From Ruminococcus sp. (lineage in GTDB: Bacteria > Bacillota > Clostridia > Oscillospirales > Ruminococcaceae): a DNA stretch of 64,000 nucleotides. Within the stretch, counting starts at the first letter, position 1; each line of letters opens with the position of its first letter. The DNA lies in the NCBI GenBank assembly GCA_014799805.1, contig JAAVHJ010000076.1, forward strand, positions 62,001 to 126,000, in the 5' to 3' direction. Position numbers and translations under genes: made by a program. Under the pieces are notes generated by a model. It made no database searches. It worked only from the letters and a program-made list of their open reading frames with translations, and was not told the origin of the DNA. Shown here in pieces: positions 15,093 to 46,846 of this stretch.

Positions 15093-16403
15093 TTACTCTC
15101 TAGTTTTATGGTGGATATGTTCATCTGTGAATTTAGAATAATAAAACTGCTGTTCTTTGTATAAGCCATAATAGCCAGATAATAAATAACTGACTGCAAT
15201 TACAAGTAAACAATATGGCACATAGCTTAATCCAAATAATTCTGCTGAAATAAACAAAGACGCTAGCGGACAATTTGTCACACCACAGAATAACGCTATC
15301 ATGCCAACGCCTGCACATAATGACGGCGATAATCCAGTTATCTGACCAAATAAACAGCCAAACGTTGCACCAACAAAGAATGACGGTACTATCTCACCGC
15401 CTTTGAATCCGCCACCTAATGTAATCGCTGTGAATAGCATTTTTAATAAAAATGCATACCAGATAGTTTCACCTTGAATGGCTTTATGAATCATAGCTCC
15501 ACCTGTGCCGTAAAAATCTGTTGTCTGAAATAGCAAGCCTAATAAAATTAAAATTATACTTGCTATTAAAATTCTCAAATAGGCATTTTTAATAGCATGT
15601 TTCATGAAATATTCTGTTTTATGTAGAATAATGCAAAATAAAATACTTAATCCTGCACAGAATATGCCTAATACTAAAATCTGTAATGCTGTAACAGGTG
15701 AAATTTCTGGAGCTGTACTCACATCATAAGATTCTGTTGGGAGTCCTAATTTTGTTGCAAGATAAGACGCTGTCAAAGATGATACCACACAAGGCACAAG
15801 CGAAGCATATTGCATTGTTCCCACACAGCCGACTTCCATCGCAAAAATTGAAGCAGCAATTGGTGTGCGAAAAATTGCGGAAAACGCTGCACTCATACCA
15901 CTCATAATTAAAATATGTTTATCTTTTTCACGAAGTTTTACAAATCTAGCTAAAATATTTCCTAATCCGCCTCCAAGTTGCAAAGCTGCTCCCTCACGTC
16001 CTGCACTTCCTCCGCAAAAATGTGTAATAATCGTTGAGATAAAAATTAAGGGTGCCATTTGCATCGGGAGCTGTGCCTCTGAACGCAAAGAGGATAATAC
16101 CATATTTGTGCCTTTATCATGTTTATCATGCGTGACACGGTAAAGCCAAATAATTAAAATGCCTCCCAATGGCAATAAGGCATAGCACCAGATATGCGTA
16201 TTTCTGAATTCTGTACTCCAGTTAATACTTTTTACAAATTCAGCTCCGACAAAGCCTAATACTAAGCCTAGTATCACAGCTAATACTATCCAACGGATTA
16301 ATAGTCTGATATGCAACAATGCATGCATTAAGAATCTTAAAAATTTTCCTCGGAAATAATAGAATGTTTCAGAAGTTTTATGCTGAAAAGAAAATTTCGG
16401 CAA
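15093..16403 (-). CDS. ClC-family chloride channel or H+/Cl- antiporter
   Basis: A 436-residue polytopic membrane protein. The chloride-filter and gating motif GGSAGREGAALQ is present, with the gating glutamate in GREG, and the second conserved region GGGFKGGEIVPSF is intact. It most likely moves chloride or fluoride in exchange for protons. The start is TTG at 16403: GAGGTG lies eight bases upstream and the reading begins MPKFSF. The nuclease gene upstream ends only 28 bp away. Confidence 0.88.
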   Translation of the reverse strand: MPKFSFQHKTSETFYYFRGKFLRFLMHALLHIRLLIRWIVLAVILGLVLGFVGAEFVKSINWSTEFRNTHIWCYALLPLGGILIIWLYRVTHDKHDKGTNMVLSSLRSEAQLPMQMAPLIFISTIITHFCGGSAGREGAALQLGGGLGNILARFVKLREKDKHILIMSGMSAAFSAIFRTPIAASIFAMEVGCVGTMQYASLVPCVVSSLTASYLATKLGLPTESYDVSTAPEISPVTALQILVLGIFCAGLSILFCIILHKTEYFMKHAIKNAYLRILIASIILILLGLLFQTTDFYGTGGAMIHKAIQGETIWYAFLLKMLFTAITLGGGFKGGEIVPSFFVGATFGCLFGQITGLSPSLCAGVGMIALFCGVTNCPLASLFISAELFGLSYVPYCLLVIAVSYLLSGYYGLYKEQQFYYSKFTDEHIHHKTRE

Positions 16404-16431
16404 ATCGCAATCACCTCTTTATGATATTACA

Positions 16432-17892
16432 TTAAATTGCAATGCTACTTAAATTCTTATGCCCTGATAATCGCATCACTTCCCTATCATGCAACATTTT
16501 GAAATCCTCAAATCTTGCATGACATTTTTCTATATCAAATGTCTTTAAATCACTATTTACATTCATAATCAGAAAAGCACTATACATATCACGTTGTACT
16601 CGTATTCCGTCAACGGTAGTCCATCTTTGAGAAAGTTTCTTTTTTTGATACGTTCCGTCAACATGATTAAATTGACTAGCTCTTGCTTCAAATGTATTAA
16701 TTTCTACTAGCTCTTTGCCAAAATAGCCCAATTTTCGATGAATAATTTCTAATAACATTGCAGGGGCTTTATTTGCAAGGGATTTTCCGAAACGTTTTTT
16801 GCGTTTGAATTTGCCCTTTGTATTTTTTTCAGTTTTTTTCGCACGTTTTTGTAATCCAGCAAAATTCATTTTTTCCACACAGATTTTATCACCAAGAGAA
16901 ATAATAGCATTTGCTAAACATTCGTGCTGATATTTTCTGACATCAGCTTGTTTGCGATAAATTTCTTTTAGTTGATTTTGACAGTTTAAATAATGATTGG
17001 ATTTTTTCCAAATCACTTTTTGATTGCCCTGTTTCTTAATTGTCCCGTCTGGATTGTAATTTTGCGGATTCATGGCACGTCTGCTTCTATCCATTTTTCT
17101 AAGAATCACACGTTTTTCATTTTCAAGGCGTTGCACTTTGTCGGCAAGTTCTAATATTTTTACGTCAGTCTGGCTTGCAATGGCAATTGTTGATGTGCCA
17201 ATATCAAGCCCAACATCACCCTTTCCGATAGGGTGTTTTGACATGCCTGTTTTTTCATTAATTTTTACAGGGGGATTGCCCTTGAAAACAATTTGAAGAT
17301 AATACTTAAATTTATTACGAATATATTTTCTGATAATTCGGCAATAAGCAATGGGATTCTGTAAGGCTTGCTGTTCATAAGTATTATTATTATCAATTGC
17401 AACTGGAATGTCAAGACCATTCCAAAGAATCCTATCTTTTCTAAAACGAATACCTTGTAAATTTGAATTAGATTCAAGAGAATTTAATTCGCCGTAACGC
17501 TTGTAATGAATTTTTTCACCATTTCCATAAAATAATTTTTCATATGCTTTCCAAACGGAAGCTGCTATTTTCTGTGCTGTTTGGGAATCAATATTTTTTT
17601 TGAAATGTTTCTGCATGTTTTTTACGTCTTTTAAAAATTCTTTCTTTGTCATGCGATATTCTTCACGAATTTCATTAATTTTTTTCCAAATTGGCTTATC
17701 CTTTTTTTCGTTATGTGTTAAATTAGCAATAAGTTCTCTATATCTTTTCGTTTTAATCATCTCGTGATAACGTTTTTGCGTCACATTAGCAATCGCATTA
17801 TAAATCTGTCTGCCTATCTCAAAACGTTTATTTAAAATATGTTCCTGATATATTTCTGTTTTCAAGTGAAGTTGTAATACAAAATACGCCAA
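16432..17892 (-). CDS. TnpB/Cas12-like RuvC nuclease lacking zinc ribbon
   Basis: A 486-residue protein of the IS605 OrfB/TnpB superfamily, ancestor of Cas12 effectors. The RuvC triad is intact: Asp230 (GLDIGTSTIAIAS), Glu340 (ICVEKMNF) and Asp435 (QRDMYSAFLIMN). A Lys/Arg-rich bridge-like segment lies at 346-371. The four-cysteine zinc ribbon that TnpB and Cas12f carry before the last Asp is absent; that stretch (400-434) has no cysteine. TTG start with AGGAGGTG upstream. It is not flanked by a TnpA gene, and no omegaRNA-like end follows its 3' side, where only 28 bp separate it from the channel gene. A CRISPR-like mini-array and a structured leader lie directly upstream on the same strand, so it may be an RNA-guided nuclease. 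A domesticated TnpB is the alternative. Confidence 0.8.
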   Translation of the reverse strand: MAYFVLQLHLKTEIYQEHILNKRFEIGRQIYNAIANVTQKRYHEMIKTKRYRELIANLTHNEKKDKPIWKKINEIREEYRMTKKEFLKDVKNMQKHFKKNIDSQTAQKIAASVWKAYEKLFYGNGEKIHYKRYGELNSLESNSNLQGIRFRKDRILWNGLDIPVAIDNNNTYEQQALQNPIAYCRIIRKYIRNKFKYYLQIVFKGNPPVKINEKTGMSKHPIGKGDVGLDIGTSTIAIASQTDVKILELADKVQRLENEKRVILRKMDRSRRAMNPQNYNPDGTIKKQGNQKVIWKKSNHYLNCQNQLKEIYRKQADVRKYQHECLANAIISLGDKICVEKMNFAGLQKRAKKTEKNTKGKFKRKKRFGKSLANKAPAMLLEIIHRKLGYFGKELVEINTFEARASQFNHVDGTYQKKKLSQRWTTVDGIRVQRDMYSAFLIMNVNSDLKTFDIEKCHARFEDFKMLHDREVMRLSGHKNLSSIAI

Positions 17893-17918
17893 AATAACAC
17901 ACCTCCTAAATTGATACT

Positions 17919-18069
17919 CCTAACACCTACAAGCACGAGGGCGAAACCTTTTACATCAACAGGAGATTTAACATTCCATACTGACACCCACACGTACAAG
18001 GGCGAAACTAGTAATTCCAGAGATACTCAATTTCCCTTCGACTGACACCCACACGTACAAGGGCGAAAC
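17919..18069 (-). CRISPR. CRISPR-like mini-array, 3 repeats and 2 spacers
   Basis: Three 29-bp repeats at 18041-18069, 17980-18008 and 17919-17947, separated by two unrelated 32-bp spacers, give an exact 61-bp period. The first two are identical; the third matches 23 of 29. Read on the minus strand a repeat begins GTTTCGCCC and ends GGGTGTCAGT. The degenerate copy is farthest from the promoter, as expected for the leader-distal end of a CRISPR. The repeat can form a weak hairpin (CCC with GGG around a UACG loop). The nuclease gene starts 27 bp downstream. Size matches type I-E units rather than the longer type V repeats. Confidence 0.75.
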
Positions 18070-18243
18070 CCTCTTTAGTGTATTAAAATATAGGCTATTC
18101 GCCACCTAAAACATATGGTTCTTATGTAGCTAAATTTCCAGATATTCTCGAAAGAATATAAGACTGATTTAGTTCTATAAGAATTTACTGCCAAAGATAC
18201 TGTTGTATCCATTAACGACAGCATTAGGTCGTGTCGAAACCTT
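18070..18243 (-). ncRNA. Structured leader upstream of the mini-array
   Basis: About 174 nt between the predicted transcription start (near 18243) and the first repeat. It holds no gene. On the minus strand it contains a perfect 7-bp hairpin closed by a UUCG loop (18142-18159), a CGACA/TGTCG stem near the 5' end (within 18215-18240) and a GGC/GCC stem near 18092-18102. It begins GTTTCG, the same six bases as the repeat. It could be a CRISPR leader, a tracrRNA-like scaffold or an omegaRNA-like scaffold; complementarity to the repeat is only 5-6 bases in any one place. Confidence 0.45.
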
Positions 18244-18249
18244 AACTTT

Positions 18250-18279
18250 ATTATAGCATAATTTGCATGGATTTGTCAA
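18250..18279 (-). promoter_or_regulatory. Promoter of the mini-array and nuclease
   Basis: On the minus strand TTGACA (18274-18279), 18-bp spacer and TATAAT (18250-18255), both perfect consensus. Confidence 0.8.
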
Positions 18280-18386
18280 ATCTTTTTGAAAATGATTTTA
18301 TTTGTGAAAAAATCGTGTTTTTTCACTTTTTTGAGGTAGAATTTTTCGCATTTTTATCTAATTTGTAAGAATTTGTTGCAGTACTG

Positions 18387-18415
18387 TTTACAGATTGTCA
18401 TTTTTGTGTTATAAT
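18387..18415 (+). promoter_or_regulatory. Promoter of the VanY-like gene
   Basis: TTTACA (18387-18392), 17-bp spacer, TATAAT (18410-18415). The 18280-18386 stretch before it is AT-rich with no feature seen. Confidence 0.75.
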
Positions 18416-18452
18416 TAAACAATAAAGCTCTCACAGAAAGGACATGCAGACA

Positions 18453-19397
18453 TTGGCAAAAAAACGTAATTATAAGATTAGGTATGATAGAATACTTGGT
18501 GCATTTGCAATTATAATAATTATTATTATTTTATTAATTACAGGTTGTTCTAAACGAAATAAAACCAAAAAAGAGAATACAAATACAACAGAACCGATTT
18601 CATTCTCAATTGATGATGCAGATGTGAACCAAGCCTATATGAATGTTTCGATAGAGACAAGAAAACTTCATGCAGGGAATTTAATTTTAGTCAATGAAAA
18701 AAATCCTTGTTTGTTTGATACACAGGCAGTTGAAGACGGTACATCAACGGAGATTAATTTTGTGACAATTAAGAGTATGTTAGATGCGAAAAATACCAGT
18801 GTAAAACCTTATACAGCGTCTGATTGGGAAGTTGGACTTGATAGAGAAACTGCTGTTGCAATGGATAATTGGTTTACAGCATTTTATCAGGAAACAGGCT
18901 TAAATGATTTGCGAATGATAGGCGGTTACAAGCCTGAATCAGCAGATTTAGATTTTCAGACGGGACGGACAATCACAATTGGCATTTTCCCAGAAATAGG
19001 AAGCTCTTATGCATATAAACCAGAGGGCAATTATGCATGGTTACAGGAACATGCCCAAGAATATGGTTTTATCTTGCGTTATCCTGAAAATAAAGAAATT
19101 TATTTTGATGAAACAATTACAGAACGCAGAACAGCAACATTTCGTTATGTTGGCATTCCAAGTGCAATTTATATGACACAGAAAAATATTTGCTTAGAAG
19201 AATTTTTAGAAGAAATCAAAGAATATACGCTTGAAAATATGCTTATGATAACAAATGCTGATAAAACCTATCACATGTATTATATACCAGCGAATATGAA
19301 TGATACCGTTACAACATTTCGGATTCCAGATGATAGAATTTATTATGAAGTATCTGGCAATAATATAGACGGCTTTATTGTGACAATTTTTCAGTAA
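18453..19397 (+). CDS. VanY-like lipoprotein, probable inactive peptidase
   Basis: About 314 residues: positively charged N-terminus, long hydrophobic segment ending in LLITGC (lipobox), then a D,D-carboxypeptidase (M15/VanY) fold. Fold markers are DRETAVAMDNWF, YGFILRYPENKE and FRYVG. The zinc ligands are missing: the SxHxxGxAxD region reads DFQTGRTITI, so the His is Phe, and the EPWHFRYVG region reads RTATFRYVG, so the second His is Thr. It therefore cannot be a normal peptidase and may bind peptidoglycan instead. AAAGGA at 18437-18442 fits TTG 18453 (ten-base spacing) better than ATG 18444 (one base). Confidence 0.75.
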   Translation: MAKKRNYKIRYDRILGAFAIIIIIIILLITGCSKRNKTKKENTNTTEPISFSIDDADVNQAYMNVSIETRKLHAGNLILVNEKNPCLFDTQAVEDGTSTEINFVTIKSMLDAKNTSVKPYTASDWEVGLDRETAVAMDNWFTAFYQETGLNDLRMIGGYKPESADLDFQTGRTITIGIFPEIGSSYAYKPEGNYAWLQEHAQEYGFILRYPENKEIYFDETITERRTATFRYVGIPSAIYMTQKNICLEEFLEEIKEYTLENMLMITNADKTYHMYYIPANMNDTVTTFRIPDDRIYYEVSGNNIDGFIVTIFQ

Positions 19398-45472: not shown

Positions 45473-46846
45473 CTTTTCCCCGCATGCGCGGGGGTGATCC
45501 TTATATCTCGATAACCGAGTCTACCTGCTCTCTGCTTTTCCCCGCATGCGCGGGGGTGATCCTCCCGTCCGCATGTGAGCTGATAGGGAAAACAACTTTT
45601 CCCCGCATGCGCGGGGGTGATCCTTTTTTTTACTCCAGCCCCTCTTGTTCGCTTTCCTTTTCCCCGCATGCGCGGGGGTGATCCTCGACGTACAACGTCT
45701 TCTTATAACGCAAATGGGCTTTTCCCCGCATGCGCGGGGGTGATCCTGACGCTGTGGATTCTTGGAACGTTGGGGAAAACTTTTCCCCGCATGCGCGGGG
45801 GTGATCCTGATGTGGCAAAAATCAGCTTGACTTGGAATTTCTTTTCCCCGCATGCGCGGGGGTGATCCTCGTATAAATTTGGTTTACTTGCACAAAATTA
45901 CCCTTTTCCCCGCATGCGCGGGGGTGATCCTAAAAGCGGACGCAAATCGGGATGGCGAAATCGCTTTTCCCCGCATGCGCGGGGGTGATCCTATAACTGC
46001 ACAGAATCGCATAAATAGCCTAATCTTTTCCCCGCATGCGCGGGGGTGATCCTTTCTGTTGGCGTGGTACTCCCCCAAAGACTCTCTTTTCCCCGCATGC
46101 GCGGGGGTGATCCTATGCCAAAGAGAGATTTGAAACCATTAATAAACTTTTCCCCGCATGCGCGGGGGTGATCCTTTCGCAGCACGCACGTACCAACCAA
46201 CAGCAGCCTTTTCCCCGCATGCGCGGGGGTGATCCTTACGCATAATATCAACAAGAGAAGTCCGAGCTCTTTTCCCCGCATGCGCGGGGGTGATCCTAGT
46301 ATCAGGCGGTTGTGTATCTGGTGGAGCGGCTTTTCCCCGCATGCGCGGGGGTGATCCCTGAATAACCAGGAATAATATCGGTGGCAAACACTTTTCCCCG
46401 CATGCGCGGGGGTGATCCGTGTGGAGGGCTTAGCTATGGACATGCTTTTTTCTTTTCCCCGCATGCGCGGGGGTGATCCTATTTCCAGAAGAATCCGAAA
46501 TAACATAATACTCTTTTCCCCGCATGCGCGGGGGTGATCCTGATGGGACATGCTTTATAGGCATAAGGGAGTCCTTTTCCCCGCATGCGCGGGGGTGATC
46601 CTGAGTTGATAGAAATTTTACTGGGAGCAACAATCTTTTCCCCGCATGCGCGGGGGTGATCCGTACCACACCAACAGAAATTTTAAAAAATTTTTCTTTT
46701 CCCCGCATGCGCGGGGGTGATCCTATAGCCTACTTTTTGCAGGACATGACGCATTTCTTTTCCCCGCATGCGCGAGGGTGATCCTCATAGGTTATGCACT
46801 TGATGAGAACGGGGACACTTTTCCCCGCATGCGCGGGGATGATTCA
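45473..46846 (+). CRISPR. Type I-E-like CRISPR array, 23 repeats, 22 spacers
   Basis: Repeats of 29 bp begin CTTTTCCCC, contain the palindromic GCATGC and end GGGTGATCCT; first copy 45473-45501, last 46818-46846. Period is 61 or 62, so spacers are 32-33 bp. The repeat makes a 6-bp CCCCGC/GCGGGG hairpin, as in type I-E repeats recognised by Cas6e. Copies 22 and 23 carry substitutions (GCGAGGGTG; GGGGATGATTCA), and a worn remnant may follow at 46879, exactly 61 bp on. This places the leader at the left, where promoter and leader are found. No cas1, cas2 or Cascade gene lies in the window. Confidence 0.97.

Follow-up and report, generated by a model that had tools for sequence, protein, structure and literature searches.

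The window, by which we mean the whole 64-kb stretch of DNA that was analysed, belongs to the incomplete draft genome (G000) of a gut bacterium. On its minus strand, from position 18279 to position 16432, it carries a promoter, a leader, three repeats with two spacers, a ribosome-binding site and the gene for a TnpB-like RuvC nuclease, in this order. The individual features, together with a second type I-E array elsewhere in the window, are the following.

18274..18279, minus strand: −35 box TTGACA; 12/12 over both hexamers with a spacer of 18, and identical boxes in the congener loci L014 and L028
18250..18255, minus strand: −10 box TATAAT, preceded by TG (promoter scoring)
18117..18241, minus strand: scaffold (leader), tracrRNA-like and homologous to IS605 omega RNA by covariance model R1
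18142..18159, minus strand: hairpin with UUCG cap, within the scaffold (sequence and fold)
18097..18119, minus strand: anti-repeat, predicted to pair with the CRISPR repeat (duplex of −23.2 kcal/mol)
18042..18069, minus strand: repeat 1, leader-proximal, 28 nt, with the 3' end GTGTCAG as in omega RNAs
18009..18041, minus strand: spacer 1, 33 nt
17981..18008, minus strand: repeat 2, identical to repeat 1
17948..17980, minus strand: spacer 2, 33 nt
17920..17947, minus strand: repeat 3, leader-distal, worn (79% over 29 nt)
17902..17907, minus strand: ribosome-binding site AGGAGG (sequence)
16432..17892, minus strand: TnpB-like RuvC nuclease, 486 aa, TTG start, D230/E340/D435 intact
45473..46845, plus strand: second type I-E array, 23 repeats, period 61-62

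The promoter matches the sigma-70 consensus at all 12 positions, with an 18-nt spacer and a TG ahead of the −10 box, and it is the sole 12/12 match among 12 promoter-like sites (9.4 expected). An earlier note on this DNA, made from the sequence alone, had described this promoter as perfect and had placed a UUCG hairpin in the leader. Both descriptions hold, the loop of the hairpin (18152-18149) having been read as well as folded. The same note had reported three repeats in an exact 61-bp register, with a 29/32 split between repeat and spacer. Counted as 29 nt, the copies indeed lie at 17919-17947 (79%), 17980-18008 and 18041-18069, with intervals of 61 and 61. The natural unit is, however, a repeat of 28 nt and a spacer of 33 nt, because a T that is common to both spacers had been counted in the repeat. 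The worn copy (17920-17947) lies at the leader-distal end, as had been stated. The equally spaced triple of 28-mers has at least 23 of 28 positions in common here, as compared to a maximum of 16/28 in 1000 dinucleotide shuffles, and other such triples within the 64-kb window were found solely in the type I-E array at 45.5-46.8 kb. The near-identical repeats, their regular spacing and the unlike spacers are those of a CRISPR array.

In the IS605 relatives of the nuclease, the omega RNA is a single RNA of about 155 nt that lies downstream of tnpB and has the 3' end GTGTCAG or a close variant of it. A covariance model (R1) was built from 14 such omega RNAs, all from loci without arrays, which were chosen from the matches with omission of longer, shorter and near-identical ones. 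This model matches the leader of the window at 18117-18241 with 101.6 bits (E 4.9e-17), and it also matches the leaders of two congeners (L014/G428, 104.4 bits, E 1.4e-17; L028/G400, 96.0 bits, E 5.8e-16). The scaffold structure comprises 25 pairs, of which 14 are changed on both sides. Among 16 sequences, two leaders included, 98.2% of the cells are paired and 58 cells are changed on both sides, the mean for shuffles being 15; none of 500 shuffles reached this level of covariation. Versions in which the partners were slid scored far lower, although this comparison is biased against them by the derivation of the structure from the same sequences. Leader and repeat 1 fold as a single unit (z −3.98), and none of 200 shuffles was equally stable. 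A search of 16300-18500 against Rfam gave one sub-threshold match, which we judged to be due to chance. By its homology, the leader is a TnpB omega RNA that was moved upstream of the gene. The earlier note had listed it as a structured leader, and in view of the match to R1 it is more than a CRISPR leader, namely a relocated omega RNA and a candidate tracrRNA.

An ordinary omega RNA ends in a hairpin that is directly followed by the guide, as exemplified by L045 (CCCCACGCC-UUUA-GGCGUGG-AAGUGUCAG). In the window, the scaffold extends into the anti-repeat, and the repeat starts 27 nt further 3', giving the other arm and the GTGTCAG ahead of the spacer. When 145 leader windows were compared, the anti-repeat gave the strongest pairing with the repeat (−23.2 kcal/mol). 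Of 1000 shuffled repeats, only 2 paired as well in G000, 7 and 10 in G428 (for its two repeat versions) and 8 in G400. Over its final 14 nt, the repeat agrees with all nine omega RNA ends that were tried at 10-11 of 14 positions. A potential for pairing between anti-repeat and repeat and a repeat end in common with omega RNAs are both evident. Homology to an omega RNA, combined with an anti-repeat to the CRISPR repeat, is also what marks the tracrRNA of TranC.

The nuclease has the RuvC triad and the TnpB fold, with an NCBIfam score that is under the curated cut-off. Its residues D230, E340 and D435, which had been noted as intact in this TnpB/Cas12-like protein, are invariant in an alignment of 19 homologs. 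With a dN/dS of 0.26, the nuclease is under purifying selection. PADLOC profiles match it weakly (V-U4, Cas12u4, 6.6e-10; V-F, Cas12f, 1.3e-8). A sequence search of the PDB with the single nuclease protein gave no match, and a profile search reached LaTranC (9jfo, 9jfp and 9jfq) with an E-value of 1.9e-6. The zinc-ribbon CxxC pairs are absent, as the earlier note had claimed, but this is not particular to the array system: they are also missing in the IS605 relatives L073, L015, L002 and L030, and their loss is therefore older than the array.

The closest array-less relatives of the nuclease are about 70% identical to it and include IS200/IS605 elements. For a tree with SH-aLRT support, 79 proteins were collected and 13 near-identical ones were dropped. 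Among the remaining 66, the proteins of the window and of G428 form a pair (support of 100) within a six-row clade (100) that they share with L015, L092, L073 and L093, and a crude motif scan pointed to TnpA upstream of L015 and L092. The window locus itself does not have the layout of an IS200/IS605 element, in which a transposon end or TnpA would be accompanied by a 3' omega RNA. Its RNA lies upstream, and no TnpA was found among the neighbouring ORFs, as judged by reading. A candidate left-end remnant following a TTAC at 18368-18365 was not supported (mean-score P of 0.22; P <0.05 for just one of eight left ends). This TTAC is situated roughly where the likeness to the vacant sites of congeners stops. 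Since a TTAC also precedes the eight left ends of the IS605 relatives, it may represent the original insertion site.

To follow the array through the homologs, 78 loci were searched for three or more repeats no farther than 900 bp from the gene. An upstream array was detected in one of them (L014), downstream repeats in eight (L042 and its near-copy L116, L029, L044, L046, and the distant L140, L144 and L150) and none in 69. The proposal that homologs should carry 61-bp repeats upstream with different spacers is thus borne out for L014, the protein of which is 84% identical, but not for more distant homologs. These have no upstream array, a sign that the earlier note had listed as refuting its reading and that ancestry in transposons explains.

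The locus could further be followed in 61 related genomes. The leader is present in three of these, namely G000, G428 and G400, and 22 others gave short, weak matches; the protein was found at E <1e-30 in G000, G428 and G440. In G428, a metagenome assembly of 310 contigs that is 79% complete, the gene for the 84%-identical protein on contig L014 is preceded by the leader and by four repeats at intervals of 61, 61 and 61 with three spacers. Leader and repeats are thus kept between the two genomes, and none of the spacers is common to the window (two) and G428 (three). Repeats 1 and 2 of G428 have a variant that is missing from repeats 3 and 4, and the distal repeat is worn in both G428 and the window. 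This pattern is consistent with growth of the array at its leader end, as read from the standing repeats rather than from any observed acquisition. In G400 (L028; G400:C103, minus strand, approximately 500-1930 of the reverse complement), one repeat is left, and of the gene there remain only some 50 codons at the start and a few at the end, with another TnpB element that has a zinc-ribbon motif occupying the gap. Twelve further congener loci were inspected: at eight (L166-L172 and L176) both neighbour genes lie side by side and the system is absent, i.e. the site is vacant, and at the other four only one neighbour gene was found. Accordingly, two intact members are found in one genus (window and G428), and the third member (G400) is broken.

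The state of the G400 locus, with its one repeat and its gene mostly replaced by another TnpB element, raises the question of whether we are dealing with decayed remains, namely transposon end hairpins that were duplicated and stranded beside tnpB along with an omega RNA, and that look like an array but are no longer, or never were, used as one. The resemblance of the repeats to IS605 end hairpins, the tiny size of the array and its worn distal repeat would fit such a history. This explanation is nevertheless improbable in view of the 61-bp spacing in all five intervals of two species, the fact that all spacers differ, the 12/12 promoter and the phage match of a G428 spacer described below. 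It is also difficult to reconcile with an intact triad, a dN/dS of 0.26 and the anti-repeat pairing in three species.

The leader-proximal spacer of G428 matches phage PV036449 (NatCom_35866) at 29 of 29 aligned bases (positions 2-30; E 1e-6; 30/33 overall). At E ≤1, it matches 14 of 50,697 phage records, at least nine of which are from human feces. Seven IMG/VR contigs were retrieved by means of its first 18 bases, and six of them agree with it at 28-30 of 33 positions, all scans of viral contigs having required an exact match of the first 18-20 spacer bases. The phage protein encoded at the matching site belongs to the helicase family phrog_62 (2.2e-169), a conserved gene. Across the two species, one of five spacers thus has a convincing phage match. 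The search for protospacers that had been proposed for the two spacers of the window gave no convincing target, and it was the ortholog in G428 that provided one: window spacer 1 had no match among phage records, viral contigs and plasmids, and spacer 2 had at most weak or partial matches in the same collections (Klebsiella phages, E 0.3), the plasmid search being confined to these two spacers. For the other two of the three G428 spacers, no convincing target was found among phages and viral contigs (spacer 3 against an Escherichia phage, E 0.3). Within the 64-kb window, the window spacers have no match elsewhere at up to 9 mismatches.

These results bear on a further possibility. TldR-like proteins are regulatory RNA-guided DNA-binding proteins, and the small number of guides and the fixed chromosomal site would suit a protein of this or another regulatory type with array guides aimed at host genes. 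We consider this very improbable. The catalytic triad is intact and invariant, all five spacers of the two species are different, one of them matches phage DNA, and those of the window lack a second match in the window with 9 mismatches or fewer.

With regard to the flanking motif, left ends were recognised by a pattern in 8 of 18 loci tried, and in 8/8 of them a TTAC precedes one and the same point of the left-end hairpin by 29-34 bases. In the IS605 family, the sequence before the left end is the flanking motif of TnpB, and TTAC would therefore be the motif to be expected for the ancestral TnpB. Directly before the phage matches, TTAC was observed in 0/11 cases and a T at that place in 11/11, all of which are copies of one helicase site.

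The locus has no cas1 and cas2 of its own, and this focuses attention on the resident type I-E system. The array at 45473-46845 has its own copy of the I-E leader, without cas genes alongside. An apparently complete type I-E operon with an array is located on another contig (L036); its Cas1 was identified by TIGR03638 (2.4e-108), and the other genes of the operon were assigned by order and size. In the I-E operon on contig C29, the Cas2 ORF has 287 aa, which is enough length for an added nuclease domain. The mini-repeats, i.e. those of the short arrays beside the nuclease gene, have the length of the I-E repeats. Intervals of I-E arrays are 61 in 92/97 cases (four arrays, one 122-bp gap set aside) and those of the mini-arrays are 61 in 5/5, as opposed to 65-69 in three arrays that we take to be of type I-C from the look of their repeats (one 202-bp gap set aside) and 65-68 in other TnpB arrays (two 133-bp gaps set aside). 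Compared with the I-E repeat of the same genome, the mini-repeat is identical at 15/28 positions in G000 (P 0.011), 17/28 in G428 (P 0.004) and 15/28 in G400 (P 0.027), these P-values being hairpin-preserving and uncorrected. The mini-repeats of G000 and G428 agree with the I-E repeat of G400 at 13-14 of 28 positions (uncorrected P of about 0.07). I-E repeats were found in six of the 38 genomes of the genus, including all three carriers of the mini-array, which are close kin and hence not independent.

The identity of the 61-bp period with that of the resident I-E system suggests, but does not prove, that I-E Cas1-Cas2 supplies the spacers. We regard it as fairly probable that new spacers of the mini-array are inserted by the type I-E Cas1-Cas2 of the same cell. 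Alternatively, the system may have obtained its spacers by another route, such as an adaptation module since lost, recombination or another Cas1, with the 61-bp period being a coincidence or inherited. The end of the mini-array leader shows no significant likeness to I-E leader ends (P 0.13-0.71), the likeness of the repeats is modest, and Cas1 was not found in the 79%-complete, 310-contig assembly of G428, in which I-E repeats were found. Likewise, in a second group of array-bearing TnpBs described below, no Cas1 was found in G440 and G770, whereas G612 has two and G520 has one in array-less surroundings. We consider this alternative the less probable of the two, given the contrast between the 61-bp intervals of the I-E and mini-arrays and the 65-69 or 65-68 bp of the others, and the occurrence of I-E repeats in all three, albeit closely related, carriers.

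Starting from the favoured supply by I-E Cas1-Cas2, we tentatively propose, as an idea with somewhat less than an even chance, that the repeat is of hybrid nature: it would owe its 3' end to the end of the omega RNA and would imitate the resident I-E repeat in length, in the position of the hairpin and in its 5' part, such that the TnpB shares I-E Cas1-Cas2 and uses its first unit in cis as a natural single guide. If this were true, the geometry of any TnpB capture should be foreseeable from that of the resident system, namely I-E here and I-C in the other group.

Taken together, our findings are best explained by a recently domesticated IS200/IS605 TnpB that has become a minimal dual-RNA, type V-like CRISPR effector, of the TranC class but of a separate lineage. 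We assign this reading a probability of roughly 85%, with the I-E Cas1-Cas2 step excluded from the figure. Counting against it are the small number of members, the failure to find a convincing target for the window spacers, the location of the one phage match in a conserved gene, and the absence of TTAC directly before the phage matches. One promoter would transcribe the scaffold, i.e. the relocated omega RNA that now serves as tracrRNA, together with the short array and the nuclease. The hairpin in which the omega RNA used to end would have been opened, so that its 5' arm now closes the leader as the anti-repeat and its 3' arm is contained in the CRISPR repeat. Each repeat-spacer unit could then pair with the scaffold and rebuild an omega-RNA-like guide, with which the nuclease may cut DNA that matches the spacer, given some flanking motif. 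For the first unit, folding with the scaffold is predicted to be possible in cis, which would resemble a natural single guide, and the units after it would depend on a scaffold supplied in trans. Spacer insertion would be carried out by the type I-E Cas1-Cas2 of the same cell. We infer transcription, RNA processing, cleavage and immunity for this system.

Class 2 CRISPR effectors derive from transposon nucleases, and the steps of this transition are seldom preserved. In the present case, sequence comparison still covers most of them: there are transposon relatives that are about 70% identical, vacant sites, two species in which the locus looks functional and a third in which it is broken. The cutting of an omega RNA into tracrRNA and crRNA, and its placement before the gene, are visible at this locus. 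In addition, it becomes testable how spacers reach a system that lacks cas1 and cas2 genes of its own.

Of the two options that the earlier note had offered, a TnpB recruited to a crRNA-like RNA agrees with the ortholog, which has the leader, 61-bp repeats, other spacers and one phage match. A wholly new kind of system does not, since associations of TnpB with CRISPR arrays or adaptation modules have reportedly arisen about 50 times, such candidates being grouped as V-U (PMC12669027). Capture has been proposed to proceed via chance insertion into existing CRISPR loci (PMC6452270). With these associations and with TranC, the kind of system was thus already known.

A second group of TnpBs (L029, L042, L044 and L046, from G440, G520, G770 and G612) resembles the window in having a related TnpB (41-45% identical by blastp) and several repeats, at least 17 in G770. 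In this group, the RNA and the array lie downstream of the gene, at the ancestral place of the omega RNA, whereas they lie upstream in the window. The repeats are 32-33 nt long with a period of 65-68. R1 detects an omega-like RNA ahead of the first repeat in G520, G612 and G440, and it has no match in G770. The array label requires at least four changes on the 66-protein tree, three array-less rows fall among the downstream-array rows, and L140, L144 and L150 carried the label 'none' in these tests despite their downstream periodic repeats. One clade of six array-bearing rows that had been named beforehand was rejected (AU p-value of 0.0006 on a quick tree), and the two captures therefore look independent.

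The proteins of L140, L144 and L150 are 30-34% identical to the window nuclease. In L140 (4060-4290; IMG/VR contig 3300042731_008413), a TnpB that is about 34% identical is followed by what looks by eye like an omega RNA (no match to R1), and then by an I-E-like repeat, CATTTCCCCACAGGTGTGGGGGTGGTCCG, in three copies and a worn fourth with a period of 62, with a possible anti-repeat, TTTGGGGAAT. Perhaps this is a third, separate capture. In L150 (4030-4450), a TnpB that is about 30% identical is followed by a canonical omega RNA end, identified by eye, and 16 bases further on by CRISPR-like repeats of 36 nt with a period of about 66, an arrangement that would fit an insertion of the element next to an array.

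Among the known systems, the TnpBs of IS200/IS605 elements (L015, L092 and L073; ISDra2 TnpB, 8exa) use a single guide from the flank of the element, with the RNA downstream of the gene and no array; in these relatives the left end is present, as is TnpA in L015 and L092. The type V-U4 and V-F effectors (Cas12u4 and Cas12f) share with the window a compact RuvC effector, but the window protein is without the zinc-ribbon CxxC pairs. Type V-F works with a tracrRNA plus a crRNA. The TranC paper reportedly describes TnpBs that use a tracrRNA plus a crRNA as intermediates between transposon and CRISPR. LaTranC has only a remote similarity to the window clade (profile E 1.9e-6). The lineage of the window would further differ from TranC in falling inside an IS605 TnpB clade and in having its tracrRNA and array upstream of the gene with a period of 61 bp. 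As far as literature searches show, the TranC paper itself lying outside them, what is new about the present system is its lineage, its recency, the movement of the RNA to a position before the gene, and an array geometry that is that of the resident system.
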